Assembly (NCBI GenBank): GCA_902590705.1
Contig: CACIXU010000001.1
Location: 154,001 to 218,000, forward strand
Source: an uncultured Bacteroidota bacterium
GTDB lineage: Bacteria; Bacteroidota; Bacteroidia; Flavobacteriales; Flavobacteriaceae
Direction of reading: 5' to 3'
Length of the DNA stretch: 64,000 nucleotides
Part shown: piece after piece, positions 25,534 through 63,707 of the stretch
Position numbering within the stretch: the first letter of the stretch is position 1
Layout of the letters: each line of letters opens with the position of its first letter
Made by a program: the position numbers and the translations under genes
The notes under the pieces: model-generated
Seen by the model: only the letters and a program-made list of their open reading frames with translations
What the model was told of the DNA's origin: nothing
Database searches by the model: none

Positions 25534-27363
25534 CTATCTACCTCTTGCTTTTTTTTGTTTTTCTGCCTCTTCCATCGCTTTTTGTAATCTTGCTGAAAAA
25601 CCTCCTACCTTTTTAGGCTTCTTTTTATTCTCCTCAATTTCAGCATGAATTTTTTGATCGTCAATAATATAATTTTTGATGACCAACATAAGCGTTATGG
25701 TAAGTAGATTAGAAACAAAGTAATACAAACTTAATCCACTCGCATAGTTATTAAAAAAGAACAACATCATTAGTGGCATCAGATACATCACTACTTTCAT
25801 ATTGGGCATTCCAGGCTGCTGAGGCATAGCTTGCTGGCCGGTCGTCATCTGCGTGTAAAAGAAGATAGCTATGGAGGCCAAAATTGGAAATAAACTAACG
25901 TGATCACCATAGAAAGGTATACTAAAACCTAACTCTAATACCGAGTCATAAGAGGATAAGTCATCAGCCCAAAGGAAGCTCTTTTTACGCAATTCGAAAG
26001 CAATTGGAAAAAAGGTAAATAAAGCATAAAATACAGGCAATTGAAGTAAAGCAGGAATACAACCCGCCATAGGATTGGCCCCAGCGCGATTATATAGACT
26101 CATTGTTTCCTGCTGACGTTTAACCGCATTGTCTTTGTACTTATTATTTAACTCCTCAATCTCTGGACGGAGAACCTTCATTTTAATTTGTGAGACGTAG
26201 GACTTATAGGTCACTGGAGACATTGCCAATCGAACAATAATCGTCATTAGAATAATCGCCAAACCATGAGGTAAGAAAGAGGATAAAAATCCAAAAAGAG
26301 GCATGAAGACAAATCGGTTTAACCAACCAAAAATTCCCCAACCAACAGGTATAGATGATTCTAAATCTCGATCATAAGATTTTAAGGTTTGATAATCTGT
26401 AATCCCAAAATAGTATTGGAAATTACTCTCAAATTCACCAGACTTATAAGCAAGTGGAAGTCTAAGGCTAAACTTTTTGGTGAATACCTCGTCGAGAGAT
26501 TCATCACTTGATAAGTTTTGAGATGTCACTATTAATTGATCAACCGTTTCTTCAGGAATTAGAATCGCACTAAAGAAGTGCTGTCTAAATGAAACCCATC
26601 TAACCTCCTGGACCGTTTCCTCATCATTACTGCTAAGGGAAAGGTAATCAACTTTATCGTCCTCATAACCATAGGTCAGCTCAGTGTATCGACTTTCGTA
26701 ATCAATACTTCTTGAGTTCCTGTAGGCAGACTTTTCCCATTCCAATTTTGCAGGCTCGCTTTTATCTAACAGGGAGGCTATTCCAGAGGATTTTACACTA
26801 AAGTCAACCAAAAAATTTTCTGTGTCTATTCGATAGATAAACTCCAAATATTGATTAAGATTAATATTGGCTTTTAAGGATAATTTTTGTTTACCATTAT
26901 CATTCGTTAAACTAGGCAAAAAATAAAAATCTTTGGTATTTAGTCTTCTGCCATCTTTTGTGGTAAATTGAATGTTAAATTTATTATTTCCATCTTTTAT
27001 TAAATCCAGTGGCCTATCCAAATAATCTGAATACTCTTTTAATCTTACAAGCGACAAAACCCCTCCTTTAGGGTTAACCTCTATAAGAAGGTGCTTATTC
27101 TCTATTTTTTGAATTTCTGCCCCCTTATCCACCATCCAATTACTAAAAATACCAAAAGTACTCTGTAAGTTGATTCTTTTTAAAGAATCGTTTAATTGAA
27201 TTGGAGATGGTTGTTGATTTTCTGTTACTGTTTCAATATTTGTTGACTGTGCATCTGAAATACCTTTTTCCCCTGGACGATTGACATAAAGCATCCAGGT
27301 AAGTATTAGAGCAATAAGAACAAATCCAATAAATTGATAAGGATCAAATCTTTTTTCTTCCAT
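25534..27363 (-). CDS. yidC: Membrane protein insertase YidC
   Basis: A 609-residue insertase of the Gram-negative type: an N-terminal membrane anchor (about residues 12-25), a large periplasmic beta-sandwich domain (about 60-340), and a conserved C-terminal membrane core containing ILMTIIVRLAMSPVTYKSY with the groove arginine, NPMAGCIPALLQLPVFYALF, and SLYYFVSNLLTI. The lysine-rich tail can contact ribosomes. It inserts and folds inner membrane proteins alone or with SecYEG. It follows pyrG by 14 bases, an arrangement usual in flavobacteria. Confidence 0.97.
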   Translation of the reverse strand: MEEKRFDPYQFIGFVLIALILTWMLYVNRPGEKGISDAQSTNIETVTENQQPSPIQLNDSLKRINLQSTFGIFSNWMVDKGAEIQKIENKHLLIEVNPKGGVLSLVRLKEYSDYLDRPLDLIKDGNNKFNIQFTTKDGRRLNTKDFYFLPSLTNDNGKQKLSLKANINLNQYLEFIYRIDTENFLVDFSVKSSGIASLLDKSEPAKLEWEKSAYRNSRSIDYESRYTELTYGYEDDKVDYLSLSSNDEETVQEVRWVSFRQHFFSAILIPEETVDQLIVTSQNLSSDESLDEVFTKKFSLRLPLAYKSGEFESNFQYYFGITDYQTLKSYDRDLESSIPVGWGIFGWLNRFVFMPLFGFLSSFLPHGLAIILMTIIVRLAMSPVTYKSYVSQIKMKVLRPEIEELNNKYKDNAVKRQQETMSLYNRAGANPMAGCIPALLQLPVFYALFTFFPIAFELRKKSFLWADDLSSYDSVLELGFSIPFYGDHVSLFPILASIAIFFYTQMTTGQQAMPQQPGMPNMKVVMYLMPLMMLFFFNNYASGLSLYYFVSNLLTITLMLVIKNYIIDDQKIHAEIEENKKKPKKVGGFSARLQKAMEEAEKQKKARGR

Positions 27364-27377
27364 TGGTATTAATTCGG

Positions 27378-28994
<1,617 letters not shown>

Positions 28995-29064: not shown

Positions 29065-30810
29065 CTATTTCTTAAGCTCAACAATATCAAGTTCACGGTG
29101 TTGGAGCAAGTAGTAACCAGTATTTGAAAAACTATTATTTTGTCTCTGATACAAAAATCGGCTTTCTTCATAATCTGTCTCACCGAGTGTGTCAATTTTT
29201 TCTAGGTCTCCAATGAAGGCAAACCTTAAAACTAAATCCATGGTAAGGTCATAAGCGCGAATCGCAGTACGACTAGGTGGTTTGCCAAATACTTTTATAA
29301 ATCTTTTTTGAAAATCATTATAAGTGCCTAATCGATAGGGTAAGCTCGCAGCAGTATAAGTAAAACTTAGAGACCCTAACTGTTTCCTAGATAAGCTTTG
29401 GTTTTCATAAGCATTACCGCGGTAGGTAGTAAACAACTGAACCTCCCTTAAATCAGATTGCTGGGCACTCATTTGTGAACTTGCACTTGATATCAATGAA
29501 AAATCTTGAGTTTCCAAGATCACACGATTGGGGAGGGAATCTACCAATAAGGAATCTACCAACTCGGGAATTAAGTAATTACTTTTTTCTGGTCTTAGAA
29601 TAGTAGCCTTAGGAAATAATTTTAATAGTTCGCGTTCAACAGGACGATTAATTGAGTCAACTACCAATACAATATTATCCTCACGATTTAATTTACGATC
29701 CAAGTACTCAAACATTCGGGCTCTCAAAAAATCTTTTGAAGTAACTGATTGGAATACATTAGGGCGCATGGATATGGGGTTTGTCGAAAGAGGTGCTACC
29801 TTAGGTGTTTTTAATAATTTCTGCTTAGTAGATAAGAAGTCAAAATTCGAGGGAATCAATGGACCTATTATTATATCCGACTCAGACAAGTAATTGTTAT
29901 TGATGATTCGATTGACCTTTGAAATACTATTCTCAGTGTCGAATGTATTTAGGTTTATCTGTATACCCCTTTTACTCAAAGTATCAGCAGCAAGCAAAAT
30001 CCCAGAATAAAAATCCGTGGATATTGTATGTAAATTTCTTGTTTGTAGTAGTTTCTGGGTATCTTCAATGGAGTCGTATTCAATTTCATTTGCCTTAAAA
30101 GGAAGTAGGACTGCCAGCTTAACAGCTTTAAATCGATTAATTGAATCCAAAAGAGAAAGCTTTTCAACTAGTAAATCATTCTCTATTCTAAAATCTCCCT
30201 TGGCCTCTCCTGGAACTCGAAGCACCATGCCTGCCTGTAATCCAAGCTCAGAAATTTGGGGGTTTAAAGAGTCCAAAACCGTTTTGGTTACACCGATTTT
30301 TTTTTCAATACGATAATAGCCCTCCTTTGGTCTGACAGTATAGTAGTTATATTTGCTATTCCAGGTTTGACTGGGCGTAAAACTTCTTAAAATAGGTACT
30401 TTGATCTGTTGACCTGCTATTAATCCTTCTTGTATTTTAGGATTTAAAGCTTCTAGCTCAGGAATGGTTATTTTAAAATTATATGCTATACGCCATTTGG
30501 TTTCTTTTGGTTTCACAATATAGACCTGAGTGCCCTTACCTTCATCTACTAAAGTATCAATCACTTCCTTTTTTTGTTGTTTGTAAACTGGTATTCGCAG
30601 TAACATTCTTTTCCTTAATCCAACTTTTTCAAGTAAGGGGTTGAATTCGATTAACTGCCTCTCGCTGATATTATAGCTTCGGGTAATTCCAAAAATAGTT
30701 TCCTTCTTTTTAACTTTATGGGATATAAAGCTCTCCGGCTTTTGCTGGGCTTTTAGAACCAGACTAACAAAAGCTATAAAAAAAATAATAAGTAACCTGT
30801 ATTTTTTCAC
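29065..30810 (-). CDS. LysM domains plus PBP1-fold periplasmic protein
   Basis: A 581-residue exported protein. Residues 1-22 are a signal peptide (ending LVLKAQ). Three LysM peptidoglycan-binding modules follow at about 28-75, 90-137 and 147-195, each with the pattern T-I-x-x-I and NP-x-I/L. From about residue 215 (VKLAVLLPF) the protein is a type 1 periplasmic binding fold, with DFYSGILLAADTL and SDIIIGPLIPSNF. The closest known logic is LpoA-like control of peptidoglycan synthases, but no ligand is known; it could also be a substrate sensor. I take the GTG at 30810 as start, just past the guaA stop. Confidence 0.85.
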   Translation of the reverse strand: MKKYRLLIIFFIAFVSLVLKAQQKPESFISHKVKKKETIFGITRSYNISERQLIEFNPLLEKVGLRKRMLLRIPVYKQQKKEVIDTLVDEGKGTQVYIVKPKETKWRIAYNFKITIPELEALNPKIQEGLIAGQQIKVPILRSFTPSQTWNSKYNYYTVRPKEGYYRIEKKIGVTKTVLDSLNPQISELGLQAGMVLRVPGEAKGDFRIENDLLVEKLSLLDSINRFKAVKLAVLLPFKANEIEYDSIEDTQKLLQTRNLHTISTDFYSGILLAADTLSKRGIQINLNTFDTENSISKVNRIINNNYLSESDIIIGPLIPSNFDFLSTKQKLLKTPKVAPLSTNPISMRPNVFQSVTSKDFLRARMFEYLDRKLNREDNIVLVVDSINRPVERELLKLFPKATILRPEKSNYLIPELVDSLLVDSLPNRVILETQDFSLISSASSQMSAQQSDLREVQLFTTYRGNAYENQSLSRKQLGSLSFTYTAASLPYRLGTYNDFQKRFIKVFGKPPSRTAIRAYDLTMDLVLRFAFIGDLEKIDTLGETDYEESRFLYQRQNNSFSNTGYYLLQHRELDIVELKK

Positions 30811-30817
30811 CAGCAAA

Positions 30818-32347
30818 TTATTCCCATTCGATGGTTGCGGGTGGCTTGGAACTAATGTCATAGACCACGCGATTTATGCCCTTAACCTTATTAATTATTT
30901 TATTAGACATTTTCTGAAGAAAAGCATATGGTAGGTCTACCCAATCAGCAGTCATTCCGTCGGTTGATTGAACCGCCCGAAGGGCAACACATTTCTCATA
31001 AGTTCTTTCATCTCCCATAACACCAACACTATCAACTGGCAATAACATTGCTCCCGCTTGCCATACTTGATCATATAGACCCCAGGATTTTAAGCCATCA
31101 ATAAAGATCTCATCAACTTCCTGTAACATTGTTACTTTTTCAGCAGTGATATCTCCTAATATACGAATTCCTAAACCAGGACCTGGAAAAGGATGACGAC
31201 CAAGTATTTCTCCATCGATACCTAAGCTGGCACCAACCCTTCTTACTTCATCTTTAAATAACATTTTTAAAGGTTCAACCAGTTTTAATTTCATATATTC
31301 TGGTAATCCTCCAACGTTATGATGAGATTTGATAGTAGCAGAGGGGCCATTTACAGAAATTGATTCAATCACATCTGGATAAATAGTACCTTGCCCTAAC
31401 CATTTAGCCCCGTCTATTTTATTTGACTCATTATTAAAAACATCAATAAAAGTATTACCAATAATTTTTCTTTTCGTCTCAGGATCTGACTCACCCTTTA
31501 AAGCTTTTAGAAATAGATCAGAAGCGTCAACTCCTCTAACGTTTAGACCCATCCCCTCATATTGTTTTAAAACATTGTTAAATTCATTTTTCCTCAACAA
31601 ACCATTATTAACAAATATACATTGCAACTGATCTTCAATGGATTTGTGAAGTAAAACAGCCGCAACAGTTGAATCTACACCCCCAGATAAACCCAAAATA
31701 ACTTTCTCAGATCCAACAGTTTCTCTGAGTTCACTCAAAGTCATTTCGACAAAGGAATCAGGCGTCCAATCTTGTTTTAATCTTGCAATTTTTAACAAAA
31801 AGTTTTCTAAAAGCTTTTTTCCATCTGTAGTATGGTAAACCTCAGGATGAAATTGAATACCAAAAGTTGGTTCACCTTCAACTCTAAAGGCAGCATTGGT
31901 GACATCCTGCGTGCTCGCCAATAAAACACCACCTATTGGTAATTTATCAATGGTATCACCATGACTCATCCAAACTTGACTCCCTGATTCAATACCCTCG
32001 AAAAAAGTTTCTCCAACCTTAATTTTTGAAAGATTGGCTCTTCCATACTCCCTCAAATCGGACTGCTTTACATTACCTCCTGAAAAATGAGCTAAATATT
32101 GAGCACCATAACAAACCGCCAACAATGGAAGTTTACCTTTAATATTTTTCAAGTCAGGGTGTGGAGCATTCTCAGAACGAACGGAATAAGGAGAACCAGA
32201 TAAAATTACAGCATTAAATTCTTTAATCTTAGAAGGGGGATTATTAAATGGGTGAATTTCACAATAAATAAAAAGCTCTCTAACTCTTCTAGCAATCAAT
32301 TGGGTATATTGTGACCCAAAATCAAGAATCAATACTTTGTTTTGCAT
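30818..32347 (-). CDS. guaA: GMP synthase (glutamine-hydrolysing)
   Basis: A 509-residue enzyme that aminates XMP to GMP. The N-terminal class I glutamine amidotransferase has nucleophile Cys79 in [10 protein letters not shown] and the His-Glu pair in [11 protein letters not shown]. The ATP pyrophosphatase domain has the PP-loop [13 protein letters not shown], and the C-terminal dimerisation domain ends with [19 protein letters not shown], the invariant GuaA tail. Together with purA at the window start and pyrG downstream it covers the last steps of purine and CTP synthesis. The stop is 7 bases before the GTG of the LysM/PBP1 gene. Confidence 0.98.
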
Positions 32348-55572: not shown

Positions 55573-58500
55573 TTAAATGTTTACTTCTTCCTCTTCTCTG
55601 TCAATCAATAAGCTGCTATACTCATCTTTTGAGCCTACAATAATATCATCAAATTCTCTTGAACCAGTTCCCGCAGGAATCTTATGTCCAACAATTACGT
55701 TTTCCTTTAATCCTTCGAGTGCATCAATCTTACCATTTACAGCTGCCTCATTCAATACTTTAGTGGTCTCCTGGAAAGAGGCCGCAGAAATAAATGACTT
55801 TGTCTGTAAAGAAGCCCTTGTAATACCTTGTAATTCTGGAGTAGCAGTTGCTGCTATGGCATCTCGGGCTCCAACGATAGTTTTACCATCTCTTAGTAAT
55901 AGTGAATTTTCATCTCTTAATTGACGAGCTGAAATCATTTGCCCAGGTTTTAGATTATCGGATGAGCCAACTTCTTCAACAATTTTCTTTCCATACAGAC
56001 TATCGTTTTCCTTAATGAAGTCAAGTTTATAAACTAATTGTCCCTCTAAGAAGATCGAATCTCCTGGATCTTGTATTTTAACCTTACGCATCATTTGGCG
56101 AACAACCACTTCAAAATGCTTATCATTAATCTTGACCCCTTGGAGTCGATAGACTTCCTGAACTTCATTTACTAAGTATTGTTGTACAGCAGACGGACCT
56201 TTAATCTTAAGAATATCTGTGGGAGTAATTGAGCCGTCAGATAATGGCATACCGGCCTTGACAAAATCATTTTCTTGGACTAAAATCTGGTTGGATAATT
56301 TGACCAAATATTTTTTTACATCTCCATATTTGGACTCTACTATAATTTCACGGTTACCCCTTTTGATTTTTCCAAAAGAAACTACTCCATCAATCTCGGA
56401 TACTACAGCAGGGTTTGAAGGATTTCTAGCCTCGAATAGTTCTGTAACTCGAGGAAGACCTCCAGTTATATCTCCTGACTTAGCAGATTTTCTAGGTATT
56501 TTAACCAAAGTTTTCCCTTCTTTTATGGTTTCGCCATCATTGACAATTAAATGAGCTCCCACTGGGAGGTTATAAGACCTTAGAGTATTACCTTTTGCAT
56601 CAAGAATGTGTAGGGTTGGAATTAATTTTTTATTTCTTGACTCAGAAATAACCTTTTCTTGAAAACCTGTTTGTTCATCAATTTCAACTTGATAGGTAAC
56701 TCCTTGGTCAATATTTTCAAAGCTTATTTTTCCCGTAAATTCTGATACAATCACTCCGTTAAATGGATCCCACTGACAAATAACGTCTCCCTTCTTAATC
56801 TTTGAATTGTTTTTAACGAAAATTGAGGATCCATATGGAATATTGTGCGTATTTAAAACATTTTTGGTGTTAGAATCTACTAGTTTCAATTCAGCTGTTC
56901 TAGAAATAACTATACTAGCGGTATTTCCTTCTGAGTCTTGTCCTTTGACGGTTTTTAAATCCTCTATTTCAGCAACCCCGTCAAATCTGGCCACTAATCG
57001 GTTTTCCTCGGAAATATTACCTGCAACTCCACCAACATGGAAGGTCCTTAATGTCAACTGGGTTCCTGGCTCCCCGATAGATTGAGCAGCAACTACACCA
57101 ACGGCCTCACCTTTCTGAACCATTTTTCCAGTTGAAAGATTCCTCCCATAACACATAACACAAATTCCTTTTTTAGCCTCGCAAGTAAGAGGTGATCGAA
57201 CTTCTAAACTATTTATTGAAGCCATTTCTATTTTTTTAATACGTTCCTCTGTAAATTCAACGCCAGCTTCAGCTAATATTTCATCCGTTCTTGGATCAAC
57301 AACATTATTTAGAGAAACTCTTCCGAGTATTCGCTCTCCCAGAGTTTCTACAACCTCTTCATTTTTCTTTAGAGGCTTAACCTCTATTCCTCTTAAAGTA
57401 CCACAGTCTTCCTCATTTACAATAACATCTTGAGAAACGTCAACTAACCTTCGGGTCAAGTAACCTGCATCAGCAGTTTTTAAAGCGGTATCAGCTAATC
57501 CTTTTCTTGCTCCATGTGTGGATATAAAATATTCTAAAATAGAGAGACCTTCTTTAAAATTAGATAGGATGGGATTTTCAATAATTTCGCCACCTCCAAC
57601 ATTTGATTTTTTTGGCTTTGCCATCAAACCTCTCATTCCTGTTAGCTGACGAATTTGCTCTTTAGATCCCCTTGCTCCAGAATCCAACATCATAAATACT
57701 GAGTTAAATCCTTGTTGATCTTCGCTAATTCGCTTCATTGCCATTTCCGTGAGTTTAGCATTTGTGGAAGTCCAAACATCTATAACCTGATTATAACGCT
57801 CATTATTAGTAATTAATCCCATATTATAATTACCTGTAATACCCTCAACCTGACTATTAGCGTCTCCAATCATTTCATTTTTTTCAGGGGGGATGATTAT
57901 GTCTCCCAAACTAAATGATAGGCCTCCTCTAAAAGCAAATTTATAACCCATATCCTTAATTTCATCAAGGAAAGTAGCAGTCTCAGGAACACTTGTCAAT
58001 TTCAAAATTTGACCAATAATCTCTCTTAAATTCTTTTTAGTCAAAACTTCATTAAAGTAACCTGCGTTTTCAGGGACTACCTCATTAAAAAGTACACGTC
58101 CAACAGTAGAATCAATTATCTTATAAACCAATTCTCCGTCTTCATTGAAGTCTTTAGTTCTAATTTTAATTATAGCATTTAGGTCTACTCTTTTTTCATT
58201 GTATGCTATGTGGACCTCCTCAACTGAATAGAAAGTCAAACCTTCTCCTTTAAGAGTGTGCTCAGGCGATGATTTTCTTGCTTTAGTCATATAATATAGG
58301 CCAAGAACCATATCCTGCGATGGGACAGTAATAGGTGATCCATTGGCAGGATTAAGAATATTATGAGAAGCCAACATTAATAGTTGAGATTCTAATATTG
58401 CCTCAGGCCCAAGTGGCAAGTGGACTGCCATCTGGTCACCATCAAAGTCAGCATTAAATGCAGTACAAACTAAGGGATGTAATTGAATAGCTTTTCCTTC

Positions 58501-59877
58501 AATAAGCTTAGGTTGAAAAGCTTGGATACCTAATCTGTGAAGAGTGGGGGCACGATTTAATAGAACGGGATGGCCTTTTAAAACGTTTTCTAAAATATCC
58601 CAAACTACAGGTTCTTTTCGGTCGATGATTTTTTTTGCAGATTTAACTGTTTTAACGATACCTCTCTCGATTAGCTTTCGAATTATAAATGGCTTATAAA
58701 GTTCAGCCGCCATACCTTTAGGTAAACCACACTCAAAAAGTTTTAATTCAGGTCCAACAACAATTACCGACCGGGCTGAATAGTCTACCCTTTTCCCAAG
58801 TAAATTTTGACGAAAACGACCTTGTTTTCCCTTTAAGGAATCTGATAGAGATTTTAATGGTCTATTTGAATCTGTTTTAACAGCAGAAGATTTTCTAGTA
58901 TTGTCAAAAAGCGAATCAACTGACTCCTGAAGCATACGTTTTTCATTTCTTAAAATAACCTCTGGTGCCTTTATTTCGACAAGTCTTTTTAGACGATTGT
59001 TTCTAATTATAACTCTTCTGTAAAGGTCATTTAAGTCAGAAGTTGCGAAGCGCCCTCCATCTAGTGGTACTAAGGGTCTTAATTCAGGTGGAATAACAGG
59101 AATCACTTTAAGGATCATCCATTCTGGTAAATTTTCTCTATTTTCATTAGCTTCTTTTAAAGCCTCAACTACTTGTAGTCTTTTTAACGCTTCAGTTTTT
59201 CTTTGTTTTGAGGTTTCGTTGTTAGCTTTATTTCTCAATTCAAAAGATAAAGTCTCTAAATCTATTCTGGAAAGCAACTCAATTAAACACTCAGCTCCCA
59301 TCTTAGCAATAAATTTTTCAGGATCACTGTCCTCAAGAAACTGATTTTCAATTGGCAGCTGTTCCATTATATTTAAATATTCTTCCTCGGTCAAGAAATC
59401 CATCTTTTGAATAGGATCTCCTTCAGAATTTTTAGTGTTCCCAGGCTGAATAACAACATAACGCTCATAATAAATTATCATGTCTAACTTTTTGGAGGGT
59501 AATCCAAGTAAGTATCCAATCTTGTTAGGTAATGATCTAAAGTACCATATGTGAGCGACTGGAACAACCAAGTTGATATGACCGACTCTATCACGTCTTA
59601 CTTTCTTTTCAGTTACTTCTACACCACAACGATCACAAACAATACCTTTGTACCGAATACGCTTATATTTTCCACATGCACATTCAAAATCTTTTACTGG
59701 TCCAAAAATTCGTTCACAAAACAAACCATCGCGTTCAGGCTTGTGTGTTCTGTAATTAATGGTTTCAGGTTTTAATACCTCTCCCCTGGAATTACCAAGG
59801 ATAACCTCAGGAGATGATAAACCAATAGTGATTTTATTGAATTTCTTTTGGGTAATAATTTCATTGTTTCTAGGCAT
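55573..59877 (-). CDS. rpoC: DNA-directed RNA polymerase beta-prime subunit
   Basis: A 1434-residue subunit forming the active site with RpoB. The N-terminal zinc ribbon ([20 protein letters not shown]), the catalytic metal loop [28 protein letters not shown], the trigger-loop region (MRGLMAKP) and the second zinc site ([14 protein letters not shown]) with [22 protein letters not shown] are all intact. The C-terminal half contains the Bacteroidota-type beta-barrel sandwich-hybrid insert and closes with [15 protein letters not shown]. It follows rpoB by 20 bases. Confidence 0.99.
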
Positions 59878-59897: not shown

Positions 59898-62800
59898 TTA
59901 TTCTTCTAATCTAATATCCAATCCTAATCCTTTCAATTCGTGCATTAAAACATTGAAAGATTCGGGTAATCCAGGTTCTGGAAGAGTTTCTCCCTTGACA
60001 ATGGATTCGTAAGTTTTTGCTCTACCGATAACATCGTCAGACTTTACAGTCAGAATTTCCTGTAGTGTACTAGAAGCTCCATAAGCTTCCAATGCCCAGA
60101 CTTCCATTTCACCAAATCGCTGGCCACCAAATTGAGCTTTGCCTCCTAATGGTTGCTGAGTAATTAATGAATAAGGACCAATTGATCTAGAGTGCATTTT
60201 ATCGTCTACCATGTGACCTAATTTCAACATATAAATGACCCCAACAGTAGCTGCCTGATCAAAGCGTTCTCCTGTACCTCCGTCATAAAGATGTGTGTGA
60301 CCGTATAGTGGTACATTAGCTTTTTCTGTTAACTCATTAATTTGATCTATAGTTGCACCATCAAAAATTGGGGTAGCATATTTTTGCCCTAAATTAAGTC
60401 CTGCCCACCCTAAAACAGTTTCATATATTTGACCAATATTCATCCGTGAAGGAACTCCTAGTGGATTTAATACAATATCAACAGCTGTACCGTCTTCAAG
60501 AAATGGCATCTCTTCCTCTCGGACAATTCGGGCAACGATACCCTTATTCCCGTGACGTCCAGCCATTTTATCCCCTACCTTGAGCTTTCTTTTTTTGGCA
60601 ACATATACCTTAGCTAATTTTTTGATCCCTGCAGGAAGCTCATCGCCAACACTAATCGTGAATTTCTCTCTTCTAAGAGATCCTTGCAAATCATTTTCTT
60701 TGATTTTATAATTATGAATAAGATCAGCAATTAATTTATTTACTTCTGCTGATGTAGTCCAAACTCCCTTTGTAAGATGAGTGTAATCATCAACCTTGGA
60801 GAGCATTTTTAAGGTATATTTCTTTCCCTTTGGAAGTACTTCTTCTCCTAAATCATTTTGAACTCCTTGACAGGTTTTACCATTAACAATATTGAAAAGT
60901 TTTTCAATTAATAAGTTTTTAAGGTCTTCAAACTTACCTTCAAACTTCTCTTCTAATAATTCGAGCTCTTGCTTATCTTGATTTCGTTTTCTTTTATCCT
61001 TTACGGATCTTGTAAACAATTTTTTATCAATCACAACTCCTCTTAATGATGGTGGTGCTTTTAGAGAGGCGTCTTTTACATCCCCTGCTTTATCACCAAA
61101 AATAGCACGAAGTAACTTTTCCTCAGGTGAAGGGTCAGATTCACCTTTTGGAGTGATTTTACCAATCAATATATCTCCAGATTCTACTTCAGCACCAATA
61201 CGAATCATACCATTTTCATCCAAATCTTTTGTTGCTTCTTCACTAATATTTGGAATATCATCAGTCAATTCTTCAGTACCTAATTTGGTATCCCTGACAT
61301 CTATCGAATATTCATCAATATGAATAGATGTAAATATATCTTGCCTAACTACCTTTTCAGAAATCACAATAGCATCCTCAAAATTGTACCCTTTCCATGG
61401 CATGAATGCTACTTTCAAGTTTCTCCCGAGGGCTAGCTCACCAGTTTGAGTTGCATATCCTTCAGAAAGAACCTGTCCCTTTTTTACTCGATCTCCTTTT
61501 CTAACAATAGGTTTTAGGTTGATACAAGTCCCTTGATTAGTTTTTCTAAATTTTATTAAGTCGTAAGTTTTGGAGTCTCCATCAAAACTAACTAGGCGTT
61601 CATCATCAGTCATATCGTATTTGATGCTAATTTTATTAGCGTCAACATACTCGACGAGTCCATTACCTTCTGCATTTATTAAAACCCTTGAGTCAGATGC
61701 AACTTGGCGCTCTAATCCTGTCCCAACTATTGGTGATTCTGGTCGTAATAAAGGAACGGCTTGACGCATCATATTTGATCCCATAAGTGCTCTATTGGCA
61801 TCATCATGTTCCAGAAACGGAATTAAGGAAGCTGAAATTGAAGCAATTTGGTTAGGTGCTACGTCCGTATAATTAATTTGATCAGGTGTAACAACTGGAA
61901 AATCTGCCTGATCTCTCGCAATTACTTTTTCTGTAGTAATTTTTCCCGATTTATCATATGGAATGTTAGCCTGAGCTATTAAATTATTTTCCTCTTCCTC
62001 GGCACTCAAATAAATTGTGTTAACAAGGTCAATTTTTCCTTCTTCAACTTTACGATAAGGAGTTTCAATAAATCCAAGATTATTTACCTTTGCATAAACG
62101 CCCAAAGACGAAATTAAACCTATATTAGGCCCCTCAGGGGTTTCTATTGGACAAAGTCTTCCATAGTGAGTGTAGTGAACATCTCTTACTTCAAAACCTG
62201 CTCGTTCTCTTGAGAGACCTCCTGGCCCGAGTGCTGATAGTCTTCTTTTGTGAGTGATTTCAGCTAACGGATTCGTCTGGTCCATAAACTGTGAAAGCTG
62301 ATTAGTTCCAAAAAAAGTGTTTATGACAGAAGATAAAGTTTTGGCATTAATCAAGTCAATGGGTGTAAAAACCTCATTATCTCTTACATTCATTCTCTCT
62401 CTGATGGTTCTGGCCATTCTTGCTAAACCAACTCCAAACTGAGAAGATAATTGCTCACCTACAGTTCTCACCCTTCTATTTGAGAGGTGGTCAATGTCAT
62501 CAATTTCAGCTTTTGAGTTGATCAGTTCAATTAAGTATTTGATTATAGTTATAATATCTATTTTGGTCAAAACTTGTTTGTCCATCTCTACCTCAAGGTC
62601 AAGCTTCTTATTCATTCTATATCTACCAACCTCACCTAGGTTGTAACGTTGATCTGAAAAGAAAAGTTTGTCGATAATTCCTCTAGCTGTATCTTCATCT
62701 GGAGGCTCTGCATTCCTCAATTGACGATAAATATGTTCTACAGCCTCTTTTTCGGAATTAGTAGGATCTTTTTGTAAAGTGTTGTGAATAATGGCGTAGT

Positions 62801-63707
62801 CAGCCATATGTGCATCCTCCTTGTGAAGTAAAATCGTTTTGGTATCAGCCTCAAGAATCATCTCAATATGCTCTTTTTCGAGAATAGTATCTCGGTCTAT
62901 GACAATCTCATTTCGTTCAATAGAAATAACCTCTCCAGTATCCTCATCCACAAAATCCTCGTGCCAGGTTCTTAAAACTCTTGCAGCAAGTTTTCGGCCC
63001 ATAACTTTTTTCAGGCCGGTTTTAGAGACCTTAACCTCCTCTGCTAAATCAAAGATTTCTAAAATTTCCTTATCACTCTCATAACCAATTGCTCGAAACA
63101 GCGTTGTAACAGGTAATTTTTTCTTACGGTCAATGTAAGCATACATGACACTATTAATATCGGTAGCAAACTCAATCCAAGAACCTTTAAATGGAATAAC
63201 TCTTGCCGAATAGAGTTTAGTTCCATTAGCATGAAATGACTGCCCAAAAAATACACCTGGAGATCGATGTAATTGAGAAACTACAATTCGCTCTGCACCG
63301 TTTATAACAAAAGTGCCGCTAGGAGTCATGTATGGAATTGTTCCTAGAAATACATCCTGAACAATAGTTTCAAAGTCTTCATGCTCAGGGTCAGTACAAA
63401 AGAGTTTTAATCTGGCTTTTAATGGAACAGAATAAGTTAATCCTCTTTCAATACATTCTTGGATCGAATAACGAGGAGGATCAATAAAATAATCGAGAAA
63501 CTCCAAAACAAATTGATTTCGAGTATCCGTGATTGGAAAGTTTTCTTTAAAAGTATTAAACAGTCCTTCTTCTATTCTCTCGTCAGACTTAGTTTCCAAC
63601 TGGAAAAAGTCCTGAAAAGATTTGATTTGAATGTCTAAAAAATCAGGATAGTTTGGTGAATCTATTGCAACAGCAAAATCGACTCTAGTTGATGATGTAT
63701 TCGGCAT
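59898..63707 (-). CDS. rpoB: DNA-directed RNA polymerase beta subunit
   Basis: A 1269-residue subunit. The rifampicin region reads [17 protein letters not shown] then [14 protein letters not shown]: the residues equivalent to E. coli Asp516, His526 and Ser531 are wild type, so no resistance mutation is seen there. [18 protein letters not shown], the catalytic [31 protein letters not shown] and [12 protein letters not shown] follow, and the C-terminus ends with [15 protein letters not shown]. The gene lies between rplL (118-base spacer) and rpoC. Confidence 0.99.

Follow-up and report, generated by a model that had tools for sequence, protein, structure and literature searches.

Our analysis of the window, the whole 64,000-nucleotide stretch of DNA from an uncultured Bacteroidota bacterium, points to a protein that joins three LysM modules to a PBP1-type domain (29065-30810, minus strand), and its best reading, which we hold to be plausible, is that of a regulator that acts like LpoA and was drawn independently from the fold that the two share. 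The protein family to which it belongs is spread over many taxonomic families of the class searched, taken to be Bacteroidia; its PBP1 domain is constant and its anchors seem exchangeable. Regulation of wall synthesis in the manner of LpoA is the likeliest single mechanism, a tentative choice that faces serious rivals in a sensor and a scaffold. No published description of the protein was found in open-licence PubMed Central papers, among the matches listed and judged by title and the start of the abstract.

The gene was delimited from the listing of open reading frames and a profile match, and encodes 581 amino acids from a GTG start that sits 7 nt past the guaA stop. This start places a hydrophobic, signal-peptide-like stretch at the extreme N-terminus; an alternative ATG start inside guaA would extend the reading frame to 29065-30861 (minus strand). 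The signal-peptide-like segment covers residues 1-21 (30748-30810, minus strand) and contains, judged by eye, no lipobox cysteine. On the same strand follow three LysM modules at about residues 27-77 (30580-30732), 94-142 (30385-30531; best Pfam stretch 97-139) and 154-203 (30202-30351), recognized by Pfam (PF01476, E 1.7e-18) and with limits set by eye, and then the C-terminal PBP1-type domain at residues 226-581 (29068-30135), placed by profile comparisons. The architecture read in the initial annotation, in which one polypeptide combines a signal peptide, three copies of LysM and, at its C-terminus, a type 1 periplasmic binding fold, is thus confirmed by eye, by Pfam and by profiles, respectively. 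Many homologues carry an additional LysM. No hydrolase domain was found in the protein and no NCBIfam model exceeded its cut-off for it; one of the ten relatives scanned (L086) passed SAG1386_EF1546, a LysM-bearing model, which is taken as a probable LysM match. A single match was found in the 1.93 Mb assembly of the window's genome, whose completeness is rated at 82.8%, and the seven named relatives of the protein, 67-93% identical, come from Flavobacteriaceae and Bacteroidetes assemblies. Elsewhere in the window, two very long adjoining reading frames of 1434 and 1269 aa lie on the minus strand (55573-59877 and 59898-63707).

A PBP1 fold of the Peripla_BP_6 kind is present in the family by profile, and not through the 29065-30810 protein alone: its C-terminal half gives zero Pfam matches even at E 10, the LppC model has no Pfam match in the protein, and its domain used by itself detects none of LpoA, LivJ and LivK. 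Pfam searches of 18 aligned family members with E up to 1 matched Peripla_BP_6 in eight of them (best 2.7e-13), ANF_receptor in ten (best 1.3e-7) and LppC, the LpoA family, in four (best 0.034). When a profile of 59 PBP1 domains was compared with solved structures, amino-acid-binding proteins ranked first among the best 60 of 131 matches, which include 4gnr at 4.6e-21, 3td9 at 3.9e-17 and the Leu/Ile/Val-binding protein at about 4e-9. The class PBP1 profile scored 78.6 bits with 4gnr, 38.2 with LivJ, 38.1 with LivK and 30.6 with E. coli LpoA; the best LpoA shuffle reached 2.8 bits, and all scored shuffled copies stayed at or below 5.1 bits. By hhalign, LpoA aligned over 121 columns with E 5.1e-8, LivJ over 268 columns with E 1.1e-7 and LivK over 285 columns with E 3.2e-9. 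That the profile reaches LpoA above its shuffles speaks for an LpoA-like regulator; that it lies nearer to LivJ, LivK and 4gnr speaks against one, as does the fact that no LppC (PF04348) match stood above the cut-off in any of 60 related genomes. Sub-threshold LppC matches occur in 15 of these genomes, and 15 of the 16 matches fall, compared by eye, in the gene of the present family. With LpoA scoring below LivJ, LivK and 4gnr, and with LppC never above its cut-off, membership of the LpoA family is not supported, and the assignment to LpoA/LppC was rejected on the latter ground.

Two AlphaFold models, of the full length and of the domain, were built from the window protein together with L002-L008 (67-93% identical over the protein), and their mean pLDDT was 51 and 43, respectively. 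Since both models are poor, the fold assignment rests on profiles. The order of strands and helices in the models resembles the PBP1 fold and the Foldseek matches are mostly PBP1-fold chains, at TM-scores near 0.2 that make them unusable as evidence; at such scores, too low to use, the full-length model has H. influenzae LpoA at ranks 11, 16, 20 and 50, and the best 50 matches of the domain model do not include it. In the family alignment, a position occupied by tryptophan in 43 of the 59 rows corresponds to Gly465 of the window protein (29416-29418).

The kinship in sequence between the PBP1 domain and LIV-type binding proteins would favour a role in binding the substrate of an ABC importer of amino acids, as would the threonine that the window protein keeps at the position of T102. 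However, the contact positions of LivJ that could be compared (S79, T102, Y150 and E226) are not conserved across the family. Positions 79, 102 and 150 are variable in the 59 aligned rows: S79 is replaced by proline in 16 rows, the window protein included, with serine in 8 and alanine in 7; at T102 there are 12 glutamines, 9 asparagines, 8 threonines and 8 lysines; and at Y150 one of K, E, R and D stands in 34 rows, with arginine in the window protein. The further contact positions 18, 202-204 and 276, like 226, were unaligned in the direct comparison; 226, mapped through 4gnr, is acidic (D or E) in 20 of 59 rows and tyrosine in the window protein. The permease expected of such an importer also argues against it, for PF02653 is above cut-off in only 3 of the 60 genomes (3 of the 56 that match the 29065-30810 protein) and none was found in the window's genome at its completeness of 82.8%; the same search was positive in 12 of 14 control genomes. 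No ABC permease was recognized among the 40 neighbouring reading frames scanned by Pfam, which include a decarboxylase, an OsmC-like protein, DUF922, a coproporphyrinogen oxidase and an rRNA methyltransferase. The pattern that the initial annotation had named as contrary to its proposal, namely that an amino-acid pocket would be conserved and transporter genes would lie close by, was looked for and not found. Given the variable contact positions and the rarity of PF02653, a transport role is very unlikely, and the amino-acid importer in particular, which was rejected on these two grounds, retains almost no probability.

The gene itself is widespread. The full protein has a match at E ≤ 0.001 in 56 of the 60 related genomes, and the PBP1-domain profile (alignment A3, 59 rows) matches 89 of 99 genomes of the order. 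Eight of the ten genomes with no match belong to one family, f16, whose 14 genomes of 0.3-0.6 Mb are endosymbiont-like in size, and the other two are assemblies rated 89% and 87% complete. A phylum-wide search with a full-length profile (235 of 296) does not enter these counts, since LysM is all that many of its matches cover, and no relative was found in the viral contigs scanned.

The genomic neighbourhood is conserved as well. In the window the gene is directly preceded, after a gap of 7 nt, by what is presumably guaA (GMP synthase, 30818-32347, minus strand), with bshC (bacillithiol synthesis, PF10079, 32424-34028) further upstream; downstream lie genes that we take to be pyrG (CTP synthase, 27378-28994) and yidC (membrane insertase, 25534-27363), all on the minus strand, the names guaA, pyrG and yidC being given from their sequences. 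The order bshC, guaA, LysM-PBP1 gene, pyrG, yidC is found in all six loci read from the genus, and guaA precedes the LysM-PBP1 gene in 16 of 18 further loci, with a second LysM protein intervening in 3 of the 16. Those 24 loci were chosen for having the gene; a less biased count was taken over 54 guaA loci, one for each of 54 family codes, a set that omits f17, f20 and f22, fetched earlier for their PBP1 matches, and families with guaA cut or not found. A PBP1-domain gene lies on the same strand within 500 bp downstream of guaA in 43 of these 54 loci, with gene starts taken at the first possible codons and with a possible small reading frame in between in L154. A profile built from Flavobacteriaceae only recovers 40 of the 43 genes, and at least one LysM is present in 27. 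At least two of the 11 remaining families carry the gene elsewhere, f5 adjoining bshC (L086, L087) and f25 in L100. The second LysM protein of genus g36, with four LysM, lies between guaA and the LysM-PBP1 gene (L079:7598-9541, L080:7016-8896, L084:7275-9185); its C-terminus has no PBP1-profile match, and no clear Pfam match in L079 and L080. For a wall-synthesis regulator this neighbourhood counts in two ways: the domain is kept behind guaA while its N-terminal module varies, which is favourable, but guaA, pyrG, yidC and bshC are not peptidoglycan genes.

The variation at the N-terminus is broad. Next to the constant PBP1 domain there may be LysM, a lipoprotein leader, TPR-like repeats or a plain signal peptide. 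TPR-like repeats joined to PBP1 are found in f22 (L102, L103, L104, L107, L108), in f86 (L140) and weakly in f65 (L123), where several TPR models agree and most single TPR matches are below the Pfam cut-offs. A short leader with a lipobox-like cysteine is present in L097, L105, L112, L138, L148, L163 and L165 by pattern and in L098 by eye; the lipoprotein labels of L098, L149 and L151 were assigned by eye. The lipobox pattern of L127, L139, L150 and L176 was disregarded in view of their LysM modules; L131, with both the pattern and LysM, was counted as LysM, and L136 and L123 fit the pattern and are absent from the tree. The tree comes from alignment A3, which omits L123, L136, L142, L155, L161 and L162 of the 62 domain references and adds the window protein, L005 and L025. 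Its 59 domains comprise 40 with LysM, 10 lipoproteins, five with TPR and four with only a signal peptide, and the N-terminal state changes 7 times on it, against a mean of 18.1 after shuffling. The five TPR rows form one side of a branch with SH-aLRT 99; in the tree as a whole, 29 of 56 inner branches have less than 80% support and several long branches meet. It seems that the envelope position of the protein matters and that its anchor can be exchanged.

The TPR-like and lipoprotein-leader forms among syntenic relatives are a further argument for an LpoA-like regulator. The interchange of LysM and lipoprotein leaders would also suit a protein that leaves the synthases unaffected and serves as a passive scaffold or spacer, linking the machinery of the outer membrane or of secretion to peptidoglycan; a pure spacer has no obvious need of a two-lobed domain kept across the class, and we hold this role to be rather unlikely. 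Somewhat unlikely, in our opinion, is a wall-anchored sensor, in which the PBP1 cleft would bind a small ligand that is not a free amino acid, such as a muropeptide or, in view of the guaA link, a nucleotide-related compound, and would signal to a partner. Besides the descent of the domain from a ligand-binding fold, whose nearest solved relatives, among the best 60 of 131 matches, bind amino acids, and the guaA neighbour in 43 of the 54 loci, a sensor could account for the near-invariant positions G270, P237, D291 and N563 of the 59 rows; Asn563 (29122-29124 in the window) is kept in 58 of them. These invariant residues may, however, be structural, the known contact positions S79 and T102 vary, and no kinase or receptor was recognized among the neighbours scanned.

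Evidence linking the family to class A penicillin-binding proteins (PBPs) is thin. Since a Transgly match is present in 97 of the 99 genomes of the order, co-occurrence is uninformative. There are at least one adjacent and at least two near gene pairs with a PBP in the 99 genomes. In G047 (L116:1684-5675) a class A PBP gene with Transgly and Transpeptidase domains lies directly upstream on the same strand, with 20 bp between its end and the first possible start of the LysM-PBP1 gene. In G482 and G519, two genomes of one genus, guaA, the LysM-PBP1 gene, a gene for a protein of about 1830 aa and a PBP gene are consecutive on one strand (L178:1864-13239; L179:3068-14661); the giant protein of G482, the genome scanned with Pfam, is an alpha-2-macroglobulin and its PBP carries BiPBP_C. 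These arrangements favour an LpoA-like regulator, but direct adjacency in at least one of 99 genomes compares with about 0.13 expected by a rough estimate, so that it is not clearly above chance and is suggestive only.

The reduced genomes of f16 bear on both regulator and scaffold. Eight of the 14 are without the PBP1 gene yet retain a transglycosylase-domain protein, a loss that tells against the regulator and suits the scaffold; the flanking genes are present and the gene absent in four of five stretches examined (L198-L201), and the fifth (G051) has no flanks and is uninformative. The other six keep the PBP1 domain in frames of 376-388 aa, and LysM is absent from the four of these proteins that were read (L180, L181, L182, L196), which is not what a mere spacer would lead one to expect. 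In these four genomes, of 0.6 Mb, the LysM-free PBP1 domain lies behind a sucB-like gene.

On balance, we tentatively favour, at somewhat less than even chances, a regulator of peptidoglycan synthesis that is bound to the wall in the periplasm, acts in the manner of LpoA and derives separately from the amino-acid-binding branch of PBP1 domains; besides the evidence already given, it agrees with the missing transport partner and the unconserved LIV contact positions. The signal peptide would export the protein, and the LysM modules, as is usual for their family, would hold it on glycan strands. The PBP1 domain, which, as the evidence above supports, no longer serves amino-acid transport, would dock to a partner in the inner membrane, for which a class A penicillin-binding protein is the likeliest candidate, and docking might set synthesis where the wall allows. 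In syntenic relatives a lipoprotein leader or a TPR-like arm takes the place of LysM, as can be read from their sequences. The proposal of the initial annotation, a Bacteroidota cell-wall synthase regulator or a wall-anchored ligand sensor, survives in part: the TPR and lipoprotein relatives and one PBP neighbour lend it support, and the kinship to LivJ and LivK, the lack of an LppC match above cut-off and the loss in reduced genomes count against it.

A wider claim would be that this Bacteroidota class has its own core synthase regulator, a protein encoded behind guaA whose PBP1 domain was taken from an amino-acid receptor in a recruitment separate from that of LpoA and whose anchors (LysM, lipid, TPR) are exchangeable; its TPR form would resemble LpoA by convergence or through a shared old ancestor. 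Taken together, we consider this rather doubtful. No paper on the control of class A PBPs in Bacteroidota was found among the matches listed. A conserved gene for which no description was found, and whose product has a suitable fold, a predicted location in the periplasm and anchors that can be swapped, makes, we think, a concrete candidate for a regulator of class A PBPs in Bacteroidota.

Comparison with known systems helps to place this candidate. According to PMC4111904 and PMC4632607, LpoA of E. coli is a lipoprotein of the outer membrane in which a TPR-like domain at the N-terminus is followed by a PBP1-like domain at the C-terminus, the latter being the one that binds PBP1A; as the initial annotation stated, LpoA combines a PBP1-like domain with different N-terminal modules, TPR-like there and LysM here. 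PMC3060616 describes LpoA, LpoB and their docking regions as restricted to gamma-proteobacteria and allows that in other bacteria this task may fall to unrelated proteins. The present family may work like LpoA, which it resembles in the C-terminal PBP1-type domain detected by profile, in the TPR-like plus PBP1 order of some syntenic relatives and the lipoprotein leader of others, and in a predicted periplasmic location with no transporter. It differs in that the window protein has LysM in place of the N-terminal TPR-like domain and, by eye, no lipobox cysteine, although lipobox-like leaders occur in some relatives, and in that the family domain scores higher with LIV-binding proteins than with LpoA. 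In a 745-aa piece of the class A PBP of the window's genome, Pfam recognized no docking domain; only Transgly and Transpeptidase are above cut-off, with about 180 unassigned residues between them.

The LIV-type proteins (LivJ, LivK, 4gnr; Peripla_BP_6, PF13458) are the closest by profile, among the best 60 of 131 matches, and share the same two-lobed fold, but the family has not conserved their contact residues, the matching permease is missing above cut-off in 57 of 60 genomes, and the window protein has LysM modules and guaA, not livHMGF, as its neighbour. With wall LysM proteins such as LytE, SafA and MltD it shares its LysM modules, which clearly match Pfam and PDB entries, and it is set apart from them by a PBP1 fold in the place of a hydrolase domain.
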